A stretch of DNA of 64,000 nucleotides from Streptomyces hygroscopicus. GTDB taxonomy: Bacteria > Actinomycetota > Actinomycetes > Streptomycetales > Streptomycetaceae. Where the stretch lies: positions 7,874,001-7,938,000 of the forward strand of contig CP018627.1 in assembly GCA_002021875.1 (NCBI GenBank). The letters are read 5' to 3'. The translations under genes were made by a program, and so were the position numbers. Each line of letters starts with the position of its first letter. The stretch's first letter is position 1. The notes under the pieces were generated by a model. The model ran no database searches and was not told the DNA's origin. It saw only the letters and a list, made by a program, of their open reading frames with translations. Shown here piece after piece: positions 53,262 to 62,262 of this stretch.

Positions 53262-54350
<1,089 letters not shown>

Positions 54351-54876: not shown

Positions 54877-56229
54877 TCAGCGACCGTTCTCGTCGTCCTC
54901 GTCCCGTGCGCGAGGTGCGGCGGTCCGGTGCGGCCTGTGCGAGGGATCCTGGGAGTACGGAGATGTCATGTCGCCCTCGCTCGTCTCCTGCCAGCCTTGG
55001 TTCCGTTCGTCTGTGCCGCTCTCCGCCACCCCCGGCGTGAACGTGCCAGTGCCAGCATCCGGGTCCGCGGCCGCGTCGGTGAAGGGCGAGCCCTCGGGAG
55101 GTGGGAAGGGCGGCGACCAGGGCCCCGTGGTGTCTCCCTCACCCGAACGCCCACCCTCCGGCTCCTCACTCCAGCCCTCGTCGGGCGTCGGCAGAAGGGT
55201 CCGCCTGATCTCCTCGGCGGCCTCGTCGAGCCCGGCCGCTTCCAAGCTCCGCACCACACGGTGTACGAACACCGTGTACTCGTCCATGTCCGGCTTCAGG
55301 CCCACTGCCGCCAGTAACAGGAGCAGCCGATCCGAAACCCCTACTTCCTCCTCGCGGTCAAACGTTCCTCCTCCCTGGCGGTGTCCGTCCCATAGCGGGC
55401 CTCCGACGGTCGCTTCGCTCTGCGCGCCCACGGGTGGGACGAGCAGGTGGCGGAAGAGTTCGGGCACCTCCTCGTCGTTGGCCGCCGCCGCGATCTGGGC
55501 GAGCGGGCCAATCATGTCGACCGCCCTCTCGATTTCGTTCTCATGACGGGCCAGCCACCACACCACCGCGCTGCCCGCGCTCTTGAGCACGTCGTCACCG
55601 AGGTAGCGCCGCTTGTTGCGCTCGTGCTGACGCTCGTACTCCCAGATCTCCTCGTCCTTGCGAAGGTCGTTCAACTTCCGCAGGCGTTCGCGGTCGGCGG
55701 GGGCGAGGGTCAGTGCCGCATCGGTCGCCAGGGCCTTCACCCGTCCGCTCCGGTCCGGGAGCGGGACGCTCAGCTCCCCCTCCAGGAGATAGCGCGCGAA
55801 GCTCGCCCGGCCGGGCTCTTCGCGGCGGACGACCTCCAGGGCCCGGCTGACGATCGAGGACACGGCGAGGGCCGGGGAGGCACCGTTGGACCGGTTGGCG
55901 TGGTTGGGGACCGGCCTCCACCACACGGTGGCGGAGAAGAGGAAGTCGTAGCCGTCCGCCGAGCTCGGCAGCGCCGCGTCGACCACCCGCGTCTCCTGGT
56001 ACAGCTGCTCCGTCGGCGCGACGGGTGGCTCAGGTTCCCCGGGCTCGTACGGATTGGCCGGCTCGCGGCCACTGCTGAGGACGGTCATCGCGAGCAGCAG
56101 GGAACCCGAGACCGTGACCATGGACATGAAGCCCCACAGCCAGGCCGACCAGTGCAGGACGTTTCCGAGCACGGCCGGTGCGAGGCCGCAGAGAGCGACG
56201 AACATCAGTCTGGGAAAGCGGTGTGTCAT
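54877..56229 (-). CDS. Two-helix membrane protein of the TIR operon
   Basis: The 450-residue product has two N-terminal helices (about residues 8-25 and 30-51), then a large cytoplasmic or soluble part. That part contains DGYDFLFSATVWWRP (about 95), a charged helical region with KLNDLRKDEEIWEYERQHER (about 185-205), AVVWWLARHENEIERAV, and an acidic Pro/Gly tail. I do not recognise the family. Its ATG overlaps the upstream gene's stop, making it third in a coupled TIR-NTPase-membrane protein operon. Membrane placement suggests a sensor or a final effector that disturbs the membrane, but this is inference. Confidence 0.8.
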   Translation of the reverse strand: MTHRFPRLMFVALCGLAPAVLGNVLHWSAWLWGFMSMVTVSGSLLLAMTVLSSGREPANPYEPGEPEPPVAPTEQLYQETRVVDAALPSSADGYDFLFSATVWWRPVPNHANRSNGASPALAVSSIVSRALEVVRREEPGRASFARYLLEGELSVPLPDRSGRVKALATDAALTLAPADRERLRKLNDLRKDEEIWEYERQHERNKRRYLGDDVLKSAGSAVVWWLARHENEIERAVDMIGPLAQIAAAANDEEVPELFRHLLVPPVGAQSEATVGGPLWDGHRQGGGTFDREEEVGVSDRLLLLLAAVGLKPDMDEYTVFVHRVVRSLEAAGLDEAAEEIRRTLLPTPDEGWSEEPEGGRSGEGDTTGPWSPPFPPPEGSPFTDAAADPDAGTGTFTPGVAESGTDERNQGWQETSEGDMTSPYSQDPSHRPHRTAAPRARDEDDENGR

Positions 56230-58211
56230 CGTGCCTCTTCCGTGGTCCGTGGTCCGGCGCCCGCACGCTTCGCACTCTCCGTGCGGGCGTACTGCGCGTG
56301 GTCGATGTGCTGCCAGAAGAGGGCGGCGACGCCCGCCCGGGAGGAGTGGTGCGCGGTCCTCGCCCAGTCGAAGGCGATGGCGTAGAGGCGGTGGAGAGCG
56401 GCCGCGTGGCCGCGCGTCGCCCCGACCATCACGCCCAACGCCATCTCCCGCGTACTGTCGCTCGCCACGGCGTTCAGCCAGCTACTCACCAGCGGGTTCC
56501 AGAGCTCCGTCGGCGGCTGGGAGAAAACCGTCTCCCAGCCCAGGAACAAGTCCGGCCATGGCGGCGGGTCTGGGGCCCGTTCGCTTCCCAACAGCTTCGT
56601 GAGCAGATGGAGGTGGGGCTCCGCCCCGCGCGGCTCCCGACGGGCCCGGCCCCGCACGCGGCCGATCAGCAACCGGTAGAGCCGAGTGTCGCGGCCGGTG
56701 AGGTCGAGAAGTGCCTCCCGGGCCTCGCGCGCCGCCTCCCCCTTCCGTACGGCGAGGTAATGAAGCCGCACCATCGCCTGATCCGGGTGCGTCGCACCGA
56801 GGCTCTGGAGGCAGGCGGCGGTCAGGACGCGGACGAGACCGTCCGACAAGGGGCCGGACCTCACGCACTCGTACATCCGCCTGCGGAACCATCCCCCGAA
56901 CCTTTCGTGGCTGAGACCGAGTTCGAGGGCCGCCACGGCTCGCGCATCGCAGGACGCCGCGGTTGCGCTGTCCGCCCAGCGCACCACGAGGTCGAAGAGG
57001 TGGTCGGGCCGCCCGACGGCCAGGGACCGCTCACCGAAACGGACGACGATGTTCACCCGGTCATCGGTGGTAAGACCCGAGAGCCCGGCGGCATGGGCGA
57101 CCCAGTCCCTGAAGTCGTCGCGCAGTCCGGGGAAGTTCGCCCAGAAGTACGTCCGTACCGCGTCGGCGTAGGCCAGCCGCCCGAAGCGTAGCCGTCTGTC
57201 CGGGTCCCGCTCGATCCCCAGCGCAGCCAATCGCTCCCCGAAATCCGTCCGCCCGAGTTCGGTCGTCGCCTCTTCCTCGTGCCTCACCATCCTCAACAGG
57301 CCGCGCCACGCCTCGTAGACGGTGTCGGCGCGGGCCTCCTCGAACACCGCCGCCGCGAGCAGCAGGGCTCGCTCGGGCACGGTGCGAACCGTGACCACCT
57401 GTCGGCCCACGTCACCGGCACGGTCGGTCACCGCGTGCATCGCCTGGTCGAGCCATTCCGCGAAGTCGGCGCCGAACCGTCCGCTGTCGCGAGCAGTCCT
57501 CACCAGCCCTGCGAAGCGCGTGAGTTCCCGCATGGGGGAGCGGTCGCACAGGCGCTGGAGGTCGGCGCTCCCCAGGTCCACGGAGCGGAAGGTCATCCGG
57601 TCCATGCGGAGGTATCGGGTGACGACGGCGACGCCCCGGGGGCGCCCCAGCGTCACCGTGTGCGGTTCGAGGTCCGGCGCGTGGGCGTGCTCCATGCCCG
57701 ACGGCAGGACGACGACCATGTGGGCCCCCGCCTCCCGGATCTGTGACCGGTGCACGGTCAGTCGGCGCTGGGCCTTGGCATACGCCTCCTCGTCGGCGAT
57801 CCCGGAGAGGTCGAGGAGGAAGCGGTCCCCATCACCGGGGGCGAGAGGGGGCTCGTCCTTGTCCGTGGTGGGAAGCTCCTCGAACCGGACCCCCGCCTCG
57901 TCGGCGCCCCCGTCCTCACCGAGCCTGTGGAGCAGCATGATCGCCGCGGCGCGGCGCCCGCTGCCGGGCGGAGCCTCCAGCAGCACCACTGATCCGGGCT
58001 TCTCCAGGCGGTCGGCGGCGACGCGGTAACCCAGCGGCGGAACGAACCGGTCGGCCAGGCGGACACGGTCCTCGCGGACGATCCGGAGAGGCTCGACCCC
58101 TTTGCGGATCATCCAATCCGCGCCGACGCCGTAAAAGACGTTCTGGGACCCCGCGCCGTTGTTCACCGGGCCATGCGGATCGTTGACGGTGACGTGGTCC
58201 TGCCCGGTCAT
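56226..58211 (-). CDS. Degenerate P-loop NTPase-like protein with an N-terminal amyloid-like motif
   Basis: The 661-residue protein begins with VNDPHGPVNNGAGSQNVFYG (about residues 9-28), nearly the same as a motif in the TIR protein's tail. A P-loop-like LLEAPPGSGRRAAA (about 78-90) lacks the Walker Lys and Ser/Thr, and FLLDLSG (about 131-137) resembles Walker B. Residues about 180-660 are helical, without clear TPR repeats (WADSATAASCDARAVAALE; MVRLHYLAVRKGEAAREAR). This is the layout of STAND/NLR-like sensors with a decayed nucleotide site. Start ATG 58211 overlaps the TIR stop; its own stop overlaps the next start. Confidence 0.8.
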   Translation of the reverse strand: MTGQDHVTVNDPHGPVNNGAGSQNVFYGVGADWMIRKGVEPLRIVREDRVRLADRFVPPLGYRVAADRLEKPGSVVLLEAPPGSGRRAAAIMLLHRLGEDGGADEAGVRFEELPTTDKDEPPLAPGDGDRFLLDLSGIADEEAYAKAQRRLTVHRSQIREAGAHMVVVLPSGMEHAHAPDLEPHTVTLGRPRGVAVVTRYLRMDRMTFRSVDLGSADLQRLCDRSPMRELTRFAGLVRTARDSGRFGADFAEWLDQAMHAVTDRAGDVGRQVVTVRTVPERALLLAAAVFEEARADTVYEAWRGLLRMVRHEEEATTELGRTDFGERLAALGIERDPDRRLRFGRLAYADAVRTYFWANFPGLRDDFRDWVAHAAGLSGLTTDDRVNIVVRFGERSLAVGRPDHLFDLVVRWADSATAASCDARAVAALELGLSHERFGGWFRRRMYECVRSGPLSDGLVRVLTAACLQSLGATHPDQAMVRLHYLAVRKGEAAREAREALLDLTGRDTRLYRLLIGRVRGRARREPRGAEPHLHLLTKLLGSERAPDPPPWPDLFLGWETVFSQPPTELWNPLVSSWLNAVASDSTREMALGVMVGATRGHAAALHRLYAIAFDWARTAHHSSRAGVAALFWQHIDHAQYARTESAKRAGAGPRTTEEAR

Positions 58212-58990
58212 CGTCCGTCGCCCGAGCGCCGACGCTCGCGCTCGAAGCGCTGGTGGACCGTACCGCTGTTGTCGCCCGCCGTGAACTGGACCCCGGTGTT
58301 GTCGCCCTCGAAGTGAGGCGCGTTGTACTGGTGGCCCTGACCGGTGTTCACGGGCCCCTGCGGCTCGTTGACGAAGGTGCCGGACAGGTCTCCGTTGAGG
58401 TTTCCGATGCCGCCGCGCACGTCGCGTGTCCGCATCCTGGTGTGCCCGACACCCTGGGCCGACTTCTTCCGGGACTTTGCCTTCGCCCGCTCCCGCGCCG
58501 CACGGGCGTCGCGGTCCACCGTGCCCAGCTCGGGCAACAGCCGGGCGAGGGTGTCGCCGAGCGCCGTCAGGTCCGACTCGGCGTTGCGGTGGTCGAACCG
58601 CCTGTACTGGCAGTCCGCTAGCTCCCGGAGATCGTCCGGGAGGGCGGCGGGGGCGATCCTCGTGGCTTTTCCGACGAGCACGGGGATCACCAGGATCCCT
58701 CGGTCGAGCGCGGTATGGATCTCGCGACGGGTCCAGTCCTGCTCGGCTTCGAGGGCGGGGCGGCCATCGACCCCCCGCACCTCCGCCCAGCGCGGGCCGA
58801 TCACGGCGAGGAGCGCCTCGCACTCCTCCACCGCCCTGACCAGTTCCACCGGGAAACGGCGCCCGGCCTCGATCGAGTTGCTGGCAAAGAAGATCCGCTC
58901 GGGTCCGAACCGGCGGGAGAGCTCGCGCGCGATCATGGTCGCGGCGGATTCCTCGTCGCCTGTCCGGTAGTTGACGAAGACGTCGGGCAT
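58208..58990 (-). CDS. TIR-domain protein (predicted NADase) with an amyloid-like tail
   Basis: ATG 58990 has AAGGGAA 7 bases upstream. Residues 1-140 are a TIR domain: PDVFVNYRTGDEE, RIFFASNSIEAG, LLAVIGPRW, and DWTRREIHTALDRG. The last aligns with the SARM1-type catalytic segment, making E90 the likely NADase Glu. Residues about 145-180 are a charged linker. Residues about 190-245 are Gly/Asn/Gln-rich beta-type repeats including VNEPQGPVNTGQGHQYN (about 207-223). This segment mirrors the head of the next protein. The gene is first in a three-gene overlapping operon. The role in antiphage or self-recognition death is inferred. Confidence 0.88.
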   Translation of the reverse strand: MPDVFVNYRTGDEESAATMIARELSRRFGPERIFFASNSIEAGRRFPVELVRAVEECEALLAVIGPRWAEVRGVDGRPALEAEQDWTRREIHTALDRGILVIPVLVGKATRIAPAALPDDLRELADCQYRRFDHRNAESDLTALGDTLARLLPELGTVDRDARAARERAKAKSRKKSAQGVGHTRMRTRDVRGGIGNLNGDLSGTFVNEPQGPVNTGQGHQYNAPHFEGDNTGVQFTAGDNSGTVHQRFERERRRSGDGR

Positions 58991-59297: not shown

Positions 59298-60545
59298 TCA
59301 GTCGTGCGCGGGGGCGAGTACCCGTGCCATCGTCGGTTGAAGATCGCGTACGGCCCGGCTGCTTCGGAATCGGGAGAGTTCCCGCGCGAGACGCCGGACG
59401 TCGCTGTTCACCGTCGCCGAGGGCACGGCCGGCATCACCCTCAGGAGCTCCCCGGCGATCGTGCACGCGCGCTCGATTTCTCCGGAGGCGGCGTGGGCCA
59501 AGGACCTGCGAAAGCCGTACCGGGCGCGGGTTCGCAGCGCGTGCGGCGGGAGACGGCGGCACTCCCGGTCGAGGATCTCGGCGGCCGCCTTGGGGCGACC
59601 GAGGTCGTGCAGGCACCAGCCGGTCGTCATCGCCGCCGGATCGCTCACGTGGGTGGTGCCGATCACGGGCTCGGCGCCGCTGCGGGCGTCGTCGCCGTCG
59701 AGCAACTCCCGTGCTCTGTCGAGGCTGCGGAGGCAGTCGCGTTCGTCGCCCACGAGCGCGAGTCCCTGTGCCTCCCGCTGGGCCGCCAGCCCCCGGATGC
59801 GCGGCGGCATTTGGTCGCTCTGGGCCCGGCGGGCCAGGGCGACGGTGCCTGCGGCGTCCCCTGCGTAGAGCGTGATCAGGGCACGTCGTACGAGCGCGTA
59901 GGAACCGAGGTACGGATCGCCCCCGGCCCGCGCTAGCTCGGCGGCCTCACCGGTCCAGGCGAGCGCCGCGCCGCTGTCCCCGGCCTCCTGGGCCATCCAG
60001 CCGGTGAACTCCGCGAACCGCGACGCGAGCAGGAGCGCGGGGGTCCGAGTGGCGGACGGGGCGTCGGCGGTCAGCCCGGCGATCATGCGCGTCTGCGTCT
60101 CCAGTAGGGGAAGCAGGACCTTCGGCGCGGTGGACTGGCCGAGTTTTCGCAACTGCTCGAACTGCGCGCGGAAGGAGCAGAGGAGGGGCTCGGCGTCAGA
60201 GGACGCCTGACCGCCGAGTTTGAGGCTGAGGTCGATCAGCGACCCTGTACCCGCCGCGAGGACCGCCCGGCGCCCGACGAGCCAGAGGCTCGGGATGGCG
60301 GGGGTGTCGGTGGTGTCCGAGTCGGTCTCGGGGCGGACGACCAGGCGCTGCAGCTCGCCGTTCGCTCCGAGGAAGGCGTCGCACCGCCGGGCCAGTTCGG
60401 GGGACGCGGAACGCTCCCCGCGCTCGACCTTGCTGAGGTGCCCCTTGTCGTAGTTGAGCGCCACGGAGAACTCGGTCAGAGTAAGGCCCGCTTCCTGTCG
60501 CAAACGGCGAAGCTCCGGGCCGAAACGTAAATCTGTGCTCATCAT
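59298..60545 (-). CDS. XRE-family HTH regulator with TPR-like C-terminus
   Basis: ATG 60545 (or 60542) has AAGGGGG upstream; 415 residues. The HTH is at about residues 8-62 (LRRLRQEAGLTLTEFSVALN; KGHLSKVERGERSASPELA). After a hydrophobic segment (VGRRAVLAAGTGSLIDLSL, about 90-108), the rest is helical repeats with alternating Ala/Leu/Arg, as in streptomycete XRE-TPR regulators. It lies upstream of and in the same direction as the TIR operon and may control it, though such regulators are numerous in the genus. Confidence 0.88.
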   Translation of the reverse strand: MMSTDLRFGPELRRLRQEAGLTLTEFSVALNYDKGHLSKVERGERSASPELARRCDAFLGANGELQRLVVRPETDSDTTDTPAIPSLWLVGRRAVLAAGTGSLIDLSLKLGGQASSDAEPLLCSFRAQFEQLRKLGQSTAPKVLLPLLETQTRMIAGLTADAPSATRTPALLLASRFAEFTGWMAQEAGDSGAALAWTGEAAELARAGGDPYLGSYALVRRALITLYAGDAAGTVALARRAQSDQMPPRIRGLAAQREAQGLALVGDERDCLRSLDRARELLDGDDARSGAEPVIGTTHVSDPAAMTTGWCLHDLGRPKAAAEILDRECRRLPPHALRTRARYGFRRSLAHAASGEIERACTIAGELLRVMPAVPSATVNSDVRRLARELSRFRSSRAVRDLQPTMARVLAPAHD

Positions 60546-61008: not shown

Positions 61009-62262
61009 ATGGCAACTCGCAATGATCTGGTTCGGCGCCATGCCGAGAGTTTTGTCGCGGAAGCGCTCGACGACACACGCGTGGTGCTGGTCAACGGCGC
61101 CCGTCAGGCGGGGAAGTCGACCTTGACCCGCCTGACCGCCGCGCGTCGCCGCGACCCCGTCCTGCGTCTGCTCGACGACGCGGCGACCCTGCGTGCCGCG
61201 AGGGACGATCCCACGGGATTCGTCGAGCACGACTCGATGATGCTCATTGATGAGATCCAGCTTGCGCCGGAACTCCTCCGTGCGATCAAGATGGCCGTCG
61301 ACCTCGATCCGACGCCGGGGCGCTTCCTGCTGACCGGATCCTCGCGGATCCTTGCCATGCGGACGCTGCCGGATGCGCTGCCCGGTCGTATGGAGGTCAT
61401 CGAACTGTGGCCGTTCTCGCAAGGGGAGATCAGCGGCGGTCCGGACCGGTTCGTCGACGCGGCGTTCACTCACGGCCCCGGCCTCAGCCGCACCTCCGCT
61501 CTGCGTAAGCGCGACTATCTGGACCGCGCGGTCGTCGGCGGATTCCCTGAGGCCGTCAAGCGCACGCCCCGGCGCCGGACCGCGTTCTTCAACGCCTATC
61601 TTTCGACGCTTGTTGAACGTGATGTGCTGGAGCTCGCCAGTATCGAGCGGCACGGCGAGATACTGAAACTCCTCGGTCTCCTTGCCGGGCGGGCTGGAGG
61701 GCTGCTGGTCCCTGCGGCGCTCGCCACCGCCTCGGGTATTCCACGCACCACGCTGGTGCGCTACCTGGAACTGCTTACCTCAGTCTTTCTGATCAAGACC
61801 ATTCCGGCCTGGACCTCCGGGCTGACGGGAAGGACGGTGGGGACTGGCAAACTCGCCTTCGTCGACACCGGGATCGCCTGCCATCTGACGGGCCAGGACG
61901 CCGCCCGGCTCGCTGAGCCCGACGGCGCGGCCGGTGCCATGTTGGAGAACTTCGTCGTCATGGAACTTGCCCGCCAGCTGACCTGGTCCGAGCAACAAGG
62001 CCGCCTCTTTCACTATCGGACCAAGGACAAGGTCGAGGTGGACGCGGTCATCGAGACGCCGCGAGGCGACGTGATCGGCATTGAGGTCAAGGCCGGGGCC
62101 ACCGTGCGCACCGAGGACCTCTCGGGGCTGCGCAATCTCGCCAACCTACTCGGGGACCGGTTCGTCGCCGGCTACGTCCTCTATACGGGACAGCAGACCT
62201 TGCCGTTCGGCGACCGGATCCGGGCTCTGCCCATGGACGCCCTGTGGCAGCTGAGCCCCTGA
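61009..62262 (+). CDS. AAA ATPase with DUF4143 domain
   Basis: The 417-residue protein has an N-terminal AAA_14 ATPase (Walker A VNGARQAGKSTLTR at about residue 28-41, Walker B MMLIDEIQLAPELL at about 77-90, sensor LLTGSSR) and a C-terminal DUF4143 region with the PD-(D/E)XK-like VEVDAVIETPRGDVIGIEVK (about 345-364). Such ATPases are widespread, horizontally mobile and of unknown physiological role. The start has no good ribosome site. It stands alone and is not obviously part of the TIR operon. Confidence 0.92.
   Translation: MATRNDLVRRHAESFVAEALDDTRVVLVNGARQAGKSTLTRLTAARRRDPVLRLLDDAATLRAARDDPTGFVEHDSMMLIDEIQLAPELLRAIKMAVDLDPTPGRFLLTGSSRILAMRTLPDALPGRMEVIELWPFSQGEISGGPDRFVDAAFTHGPGLSRTSALRKRDYLDRAVVGGFPEAVKRTPRRRTAFFNAYLSTLVERDVLELASIERHGEILKLLGLLAGRAGGLLVPAALATASGIPRTTLVRYLELLTSVFLIKTIPAWTSGLTGRTVGTGKLAFVDTGIACHLTGQDAARLAEPDGAAGAMLENFVVMELARQLTWSEQQGRLFHYRTKDKVEVDAVIETPRGDVIGIEVKAGATVRTEDLSGLRNLANLLGDRFVAGYVLYTGQQTLPFGDRIRALPMDALWQLSP

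Follow-up and report, generated by a model that had tools for sequence, protein, structure and literature searches.

The locus examined here raises the question of why two proteins encoded by overlapping genes carry nearly the same short motif at their facing ends, and what that motif may do for them. The window, that is, the whole stretch of 64,000 nucleotides that was analysed, comes from the 12.0 Mb genome of Streptomyces hygroscopicus. As listed in Table 1, the operon consists of four genes, encoding an HTH regulator, a TIR protein (P0001), an nSTAND3-like P-loop protein (P0002) and a membrane protein (P0003). The gene of P0003 likewise overlaps the P-loop gene by 4 bases, and no confident Pfam family match was found for this third protein. 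Among related TIR pairs, the 4-base overlap of TIR and sensor genes was counted in 34/34, then 38/40, then 78/80 cases; the start codon taken was the one closest to the TIR stop or to an overlap of -4, a rule that biases these figures towards -4. Among 80 named loci retrieved by means of the sensor profile, the TIR lies upstream of the sensor in all 80, an HTH homologue lies upstream in 77 and a P0003 homologue lies downstream of the sensor in 79; close relatives are over-represented in these counts because the loci are the best 80 of 150 relatives.

Table 1. Positions of the operon genes and of the features discussed, in window coordinates
Feature	Position	Strand	Remarks
Third operon gene P0003, conserved protein	54877..56229	(-)	N-terminal membrane segments by eye
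nSTAND3-like P-loop sensor gene P0002	56226..58211	(-)	661 aa
Walker B-like FLLDLS with D134	57804..57821	(-)	D 43/46, N 3/46
Walker A-like APPGSGRR, Arg replacing Lys (R86)	57951..57974	(-)	R 44/46, L 2/46 rows of alignment A5
Sensor head tag VNDPHGPVNNGAGSQN	58140..58187	(-)	P-loop protein residues 9-24
ATGA 4-base overlap, TIR stop / P-loop start	58208..58211	(-)	
TIR effector gene P0001	58208..58990	(-)	260 aa
TIR tail tag VNEPQGPVNTGQGHQYN	58322..58372	(-)	TIR residues 207-223
Codon of putative catalytic Glu E90	58721..58723	(-)	invariant, alignment A2 (11 rows)
Upstream HTH regulator, Xre-like by eye	59298..60545	(-)	415 aa from MMSTDLRF methionine, start by homology

The operon is patchily distributed across actinobacteria. 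A match of any kind to P0002 is present in 39 of 121 Streptomyces genomes, 10 of which (the own genome included) reach about 70% identity or more, and a sensor with 100% identity is on record from Streptomyces samsunensis DSM 42010. Two further copies exist in the host genome: in the second, L041 (G000:C1:3745500-3757500), the sensor is cut short at 403 aa, and in the third, L042, it is full-length at 665 aa. The window operon lies beside ychF (53262-54350), and metK (S-adenosylmethionine synthetase, named by eye) adjoins the operon in 10 loci of other clades (L037-L040, L047-L049, L054-L056); such neighbourhoods are possible preferred chromosomal sites. Near the operon, a plus-strand ORF at 61009-62262 (MATRNDLVRRH...) has a canonical GKS P-loop (GARQAGKSTL).

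P0001 was assigned to Pfam TIR_2 (E 7.9e-10). With a profile of 11 relatives, all 19 PDB sequences at E<=0.01 were SARM1/TIR-1, and the SARM1 match reached E 2.7e-13. The sequence-only reading had pointed to a SARM1-type Glu at residue 90, and this is borne out, as E90 is aligned with the Glu of SARM1 DWVHKE and is invariant in the 11-sequence alignment; the W-x3-E pattern is kept in 137 of 139 TIRs. From these comparisons P0001 appears to be a SARM1-like TIR with a putative catalytic Glu, and NADase activity is predicted. Identity with Thoeris type III (ThcB4) was rejected, the score being 17.3 bits against an NCBIfam cut-off of 220 bits. Upstream of the shared tag, some TIR tails (for example L042, L043 and L132) contain a second segment, VQSRDxTGDVG; beside it may be noted the 3-mer ARD, which the text of PMC9815663 mentions for BASS2.

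The partner, P0002, is an nSTAND3-like P-loop protein whose C-terminal part is helical. The nSTAND3 profile matched 11 of 11 sensor members at E<=1, with a best value of 1.6e-7 and 0.08 for the window protein, and in the same 11 members no Pfam match to NACHT or NB-ARC appeared at E<=1, nSTAND3 and AAA_16 being found instead. The fold is of the AAA+/STAND P-loop type, with fold matches tying between STAND and other AAA+ proteins. The Walker A Lys is absent from the sensor family as represented in alignment A5, which left out L258 (stops in the match) and L266; this replacement, mainly by Arg, had not been anticipated before. Residues 1-43 of the sensor have pLDDT below 50, so that the sensor-side tag is predicted by the model to be disordered.

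The near-identical motif reported earlier at the facing ends of the two proteins was found at the positions given. The Smith-Waterman score of the window tail against the window head is 57; none of 5000 shuffled heads attains it, nor does the head of any of 277 other called proteins, the highest of which scores 39. Compared over their full lengths, the two proteins have no better local match than the tag. The core [NHQS]xGxG, a pattern chosen after viewing the sequences, occurs in 133 tails and 119 heads of 139 distinct TIR/sensor pairs, compared with 34% of tails and 6% of heads after shuffling. It is on both partners in 117 pairs and on neither in 4, the head of L048 being counted only by a chance match at residue 2, and in 114 heads it begins at residues 10-30. 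The consensus is VndprGPVHtGxGdQYvfyg for heads and VnepqGPVHTGsGxQYn for tails. In these pairs, a profile made from the motif segments of one partner recovers the other: the profile of heads finds 124 of 139 TIRs and that of tails 96 of 139 sensors, with no reversed decoy at E<=0.01 in either direction. Chance similarity of the tags is therefore ruled out by the shuffles, the core counts in 139 pairs, the cross-partner profiles and the matched versus mismatched scores given below.

The tag is not universal. Among the 20 heads in which the strict core is missing, several still show a variant on inspection by eye (for example VTVTGNGDVY), and L175 has GG for GxG on both partners. No recognisable head tag was seen in six sensors among the 139 pairs (L048, L049, L056, L177, L264 and L139). 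The earlier proposal was to be doubted if homologues lacked the shared motif; most homologues examined do have it, while some subfamilies are without the sensor head motif. Likewise, the idea of a candidate signalling pair gains from a conserved and mostly matched motif in sensor/effector operons, and is limited by those subfamilies in which the head motif was lost.

Distant relatives of the sensor sit behind a different effector, and Pfam names none of nine such effectors scanned. One of them, P0243, was modelled with AF2 (pLDDT 85) as a class III cyclase fold, with Ma1120 adenylyl cyclase as the best Foldseek match (E 2.5e-8) and the cUMP synthase 7r65 at rank 33; on this model, the effector of the distant relatives would be a class III cyclase-fold protein. 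D25 and D72 are invariant in 51 aligned cyclase-fold homologues and presumably have a metal role, and for some homologues the source annotation reads guanylate cyclase domain or class 3 adenylate cyclase. Among 30 cyclase loci, 11 are without a recognised sensor downstream. On the sensor tree, in which 26 of 72 inner branches are unresolved, no fewer than 5 switches of effector label are required. Sensor relatives were also seen behind small upstream proteins in L181, L184, L186, L187 and L189, with weaker end-to-end motif similarity (in L184, ARLVQVGRDY and ARVTQVGGDY).

Several loci have variant or different motifs that are alike on both partners (L142, L144, L146, L143, L188 and L278). L143 has its own shared motif, TMNFSGASGTFVGVNQNSTNHGKQNY / TMDFSSASGMFSGINQNSPNHGTQNY, as does L188, SFSHHGEHGIQAYN / SFTHSGMHGIQAYN, and in L278 GDGAQSAFGNTV is found on both partners. 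In L141, a cyclase carries a TIR-type tail, GPVHTGRGDQ, beyond its own motif; the sensor head reads GPVHSGDGDQ, and this sensor groups among TIR-type sensors on the tree (support 85).

The degree of matching within loci was measured after clustering of sensors at 60% identity, which gave 95 clusters from 178 pairs (54 clusters in an earlier run). L172 was left out, its head not being joined to the TIR end, and loci without an upstream TIR or cyclase were not counted as pairs. In the TIR set of 66 clusters, the matched mean was 57.1 versus 42.7 for mismatched pairs (z 13.4), and in the cyclase set of 20 clusters it was 71.2 versus 37.0 (z 11.0); 0 of 20000 permutations were as high in either set. 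A cyclase set of 22 clusters gave z 12.8, a value that included L287 and L301, which were added after their match was seen and whose downstream gene is not recognised by the sensor profile; both were dropped. The score of the cognate head lies above that of the median mismatched head in 49/66 TIR and 19/20 cyclase clusters, beats the head of the nearest relative in 40/66 and 14/20, and ranks first in only 8/66 and 12/20, respectively. Some cyclase-set alignments extend into Pro/Ala linkers; the match of L148 is weak (30 versus a median of 25.5), and the best alignment of L183 is linker only. In the 7 clusters with neither TIR nor cyclase, matching is weak (z 2.5, a level attained in 147 of 20000 permutations). 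Within the host genome, a 3x3 test showed that the window tail and the tail of L042 prefer their own heads and that of L041 does not.

When the identity of sensor bodies and TIR domains was controlled for in a partial Mantel test across 36 TIR clusters, no significant correlation was left (r 0.05, a value attained in 1525 of 5000 permutations), so that much of the matching in the TIR set is inherited by lineage. Matched scores exceed mismatched ones; co-evolution beyond lineage is not claimed for all loci. Since tags are mostly matched even where the tag or the enzyme has changed, the tag is, judged from sequence, probably the means by which the sensor recruits its enzyme.

Similar tags could also have arisen as a by-product of repeated DNA copying between overlapping gene ends, with no function of their own. 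At shared residues, matched pairs have a codon identity of 0.554, a little higher than the 0.513 (sd 0.012) expected from comparisons between loci, and in L278 16 of 17 tag codons are identical, which indicates a likely recent copy of the tag between the partners. Against such an origin, only L278 (p 0.0002 before correction) stands after correction among 72 loci with a score of 45 or more, the window pair has 6/10 identical codons, as expected, and the tag is conserved between distant lineages. Because codon identity is only slightly raised and L278 alone stands out, the likeness appears to be kept mostly at the protein level. Plain duplication as the whole cause is mostly rejected by the codons, L278 excepted, and copying without function is highly improbable.

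It may further be supposed that the two tags each bind the same third partner or ligand, such as the operon membrane protein, a nucleotide, a nucleic acid or a cell-wall component, without touching each other. The conserved third gene, present downstream in 79 of the 80 named loci (best 80 of 150 relatives), fits such an arrangement. From locus to locus, though, the two tags vary in step, and within the cyclase set the change is often complete, which an external ligand would not demand. Of 10 third-gene proteins a single one contains the core, in the form STGIG, which looks like a chance occurrence, and a tag on the third operon protein was thus rejected. A common partner is accordingly quite improbable, and any role of the third protein would be a matter of inference. 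In L045, L050, L053 and L057, a gene adjoining the operon encodes a protein of 143-149 aa with GGxQHGPxxQxGTVxGL at its end, a Gly-rich motif of another kind that may be a further tag.

The sequences suggest a homotypic tag, specific to the operon, with which a STAND-like sensor would gather its effector, perhaps by amyloid-type templating. The explanation that accounts best for the whole is thought slightly more apt to be right than wrong. One short Gly/Asn/Gln tag, probably disordered, is shared by both partners and lies at the N terminus of the sensor and near the C terminus of the effector. On some trigger the sensor would oligomerise, and its gathered tags would form a beta-type (amyloid or amyloid-like) nucleus, which would template the tails of the sensor's own TIR partner; the clustered TIR domains would then cut NAD+, with a stop of growth or the killing of the compartment as the outcome. 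What the sequences themselves establish is the gene order, the domains, the conserved catalytic Glu, the conserved and mostly matched tags and the occurrence of different effectors behind related sensors; oligomerisation, templating, NAD cleavage and an immune role belong to the proposed mechanism. Counting against this explanation are the sensors without tags, the null partial Mantel test, the low number of first ranks in the TIR set, the Arg in Walker A, the lack of a RHIM or PP core and a pairwise likeness to four published peptides that does not surpass shuffles.

The same matching would be expected if the tags served for docking and paired in some defined way other than amyloid, for example by strand addition or as a small beta domain of at least two copies, and so did no more than keep effector and sensor joined. 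The RHIM tetrad has the pattern [IV]Q[IVLC]G. This tetrad and the PP core, NxGxQxGxN (PMC9815663), are present in 0/139 tails and 0/139 heads, so that RHIM or PP membership was rejected. Pairwise similarity to four published peptides (BASS3 and three others) was no better than shuffles; for BASS3, 26 of 200 shuffles scored as high, in a comparison with a single peptide of that family. Sigma likeness is marginal by profile, and membership of BASS3 or sigma is not established by these pairwise scores. The absence of these cores and the unmatched amyloid peptides speak for docking. On the other side, the same sequence on both partners is described as typical of homotypic self-templating motifs (PMC7889193, PMC9815663), the tag is Gly-rich and alternating, and its sensor-side copy is disordered in the model. 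Docking is therefore considered unlikely, though it keeps appreciable weight beside self-templating tags.

Even with real pairing of the tags, the role of the operon could lie in developmental or stress signalling and not in immunity, and the TIR may make a signal instead of depleting NAD. In related loci the effector is a class III cyclase-fold protein, its gene is preceded by one of the CRP family in both loci profiled (L141 and L150), and PADLOC gave no match among the three window proteins. Conversely, a patchy distribution, seen here in the Streptomyces genomes, together with a TIR/STAND make-up is usual for defence, and the TIR is SARM1-like. A role outside immunity is rated as rather unlikely, and an immune role of the TIR and its sensor would follow from the preferred explanation.

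Such an arrangement belongs to a kind already known, because BASS pairs, some of them with TIR, are in print (PMC7889193). In these, motifs are common to adjacent NLR and effector genes of filamentous bacteria, the effector having mostly a Bell and sometimes a CHAT or TIR domain (PMC7889193), and ten BASS families are described, BASS3 being RHIM-like (PMC8086366, PMC9815663, PMC12261475). As in the BASS NLR/effector pairs (Dyrka et al. 2020, following the accounts in PMC7889193, PMC8086366, PMC9815663 and PMC12261475), the genes are adjacent or overlapping, the motif is at the effector C terminus and the sensor N terminus, it is alike within a pair and falls into several families, and TIR effectors occur in actinobacteria, the BASS reports covering TIR and CHAT effectors of filamentous members. 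However, the main effector described for BASS is the Bell domain, whereas here it is a SARM1-like TIR or a class III cyclase-fold protein, and the present sensor is nSTAND3-like with GxGR and, in the 11 members scanned, no NACHT/NB-ARC match, differing from the BASS NLRs. The EAD-coupled conflict systems of multicellular bacteria also place a small domain on both core protein and effector, closer in sequence when the genes are adjacent, and homotypic coupling has been proposed for them (PMC7159879); EADs are described as small folded domains, while here the tag has about 20 residues and no predicted fold. In its alternating pattern, NxGxGxQxN, the window tail comes close to the PP core NxGxQxGxN (PMC9815663). 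Like the fungal sigma and PP/RHIM motifs, the tag is short and rich in Gly/Asn/Gln, and GSGDQ(F/Y)NT is common to it and the Nectria sigma peptide. Assembly of SARM1 depends on SAM domains and is held in check by an ARM lock; the window TIR matches SARM1/TIR-1, with the region of the catalytic Glu aligned, and has a short tail tag instead. Compared to Avs, other STAND NTPases and nSTAND3 proteins, the effector is in a separate gene, the Walker A Lys is Arg and PADLOC finds no match. In the titles and abstracts surveyed from open-licence literature, nothing was found on this sensor family, this tag motif or cyclase effectors with such tags.

These findings may point to a large unrecognised actinobacterial class, a view that falls a little short of an even chance. 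Its nSTAND3-like sensors, with Lys changed to Arg in the P-loop, would bear private self-templating tags matched to one effector of the operon. The tags would diversify together or occasionally be copied, which would insulate parallel systems within one cell, and the effector would swap between SARM1-like TIR and class III cyclase-fold proteins. The loci add a receptor family that is weakly recognised by Pfam and has no PADLOC match, and the proposed mechanism would extend amyloid-type signalling to SARM1-like TIRs and cyclase-fold effectors. Moreover, they form a natural replicated series of matched-tag sensor/effector pairs, including loci that differ in tag or effector; whether short homotypic tags determine the specificity of bacterial signalling is therefore testable by swapping about 20 residues.
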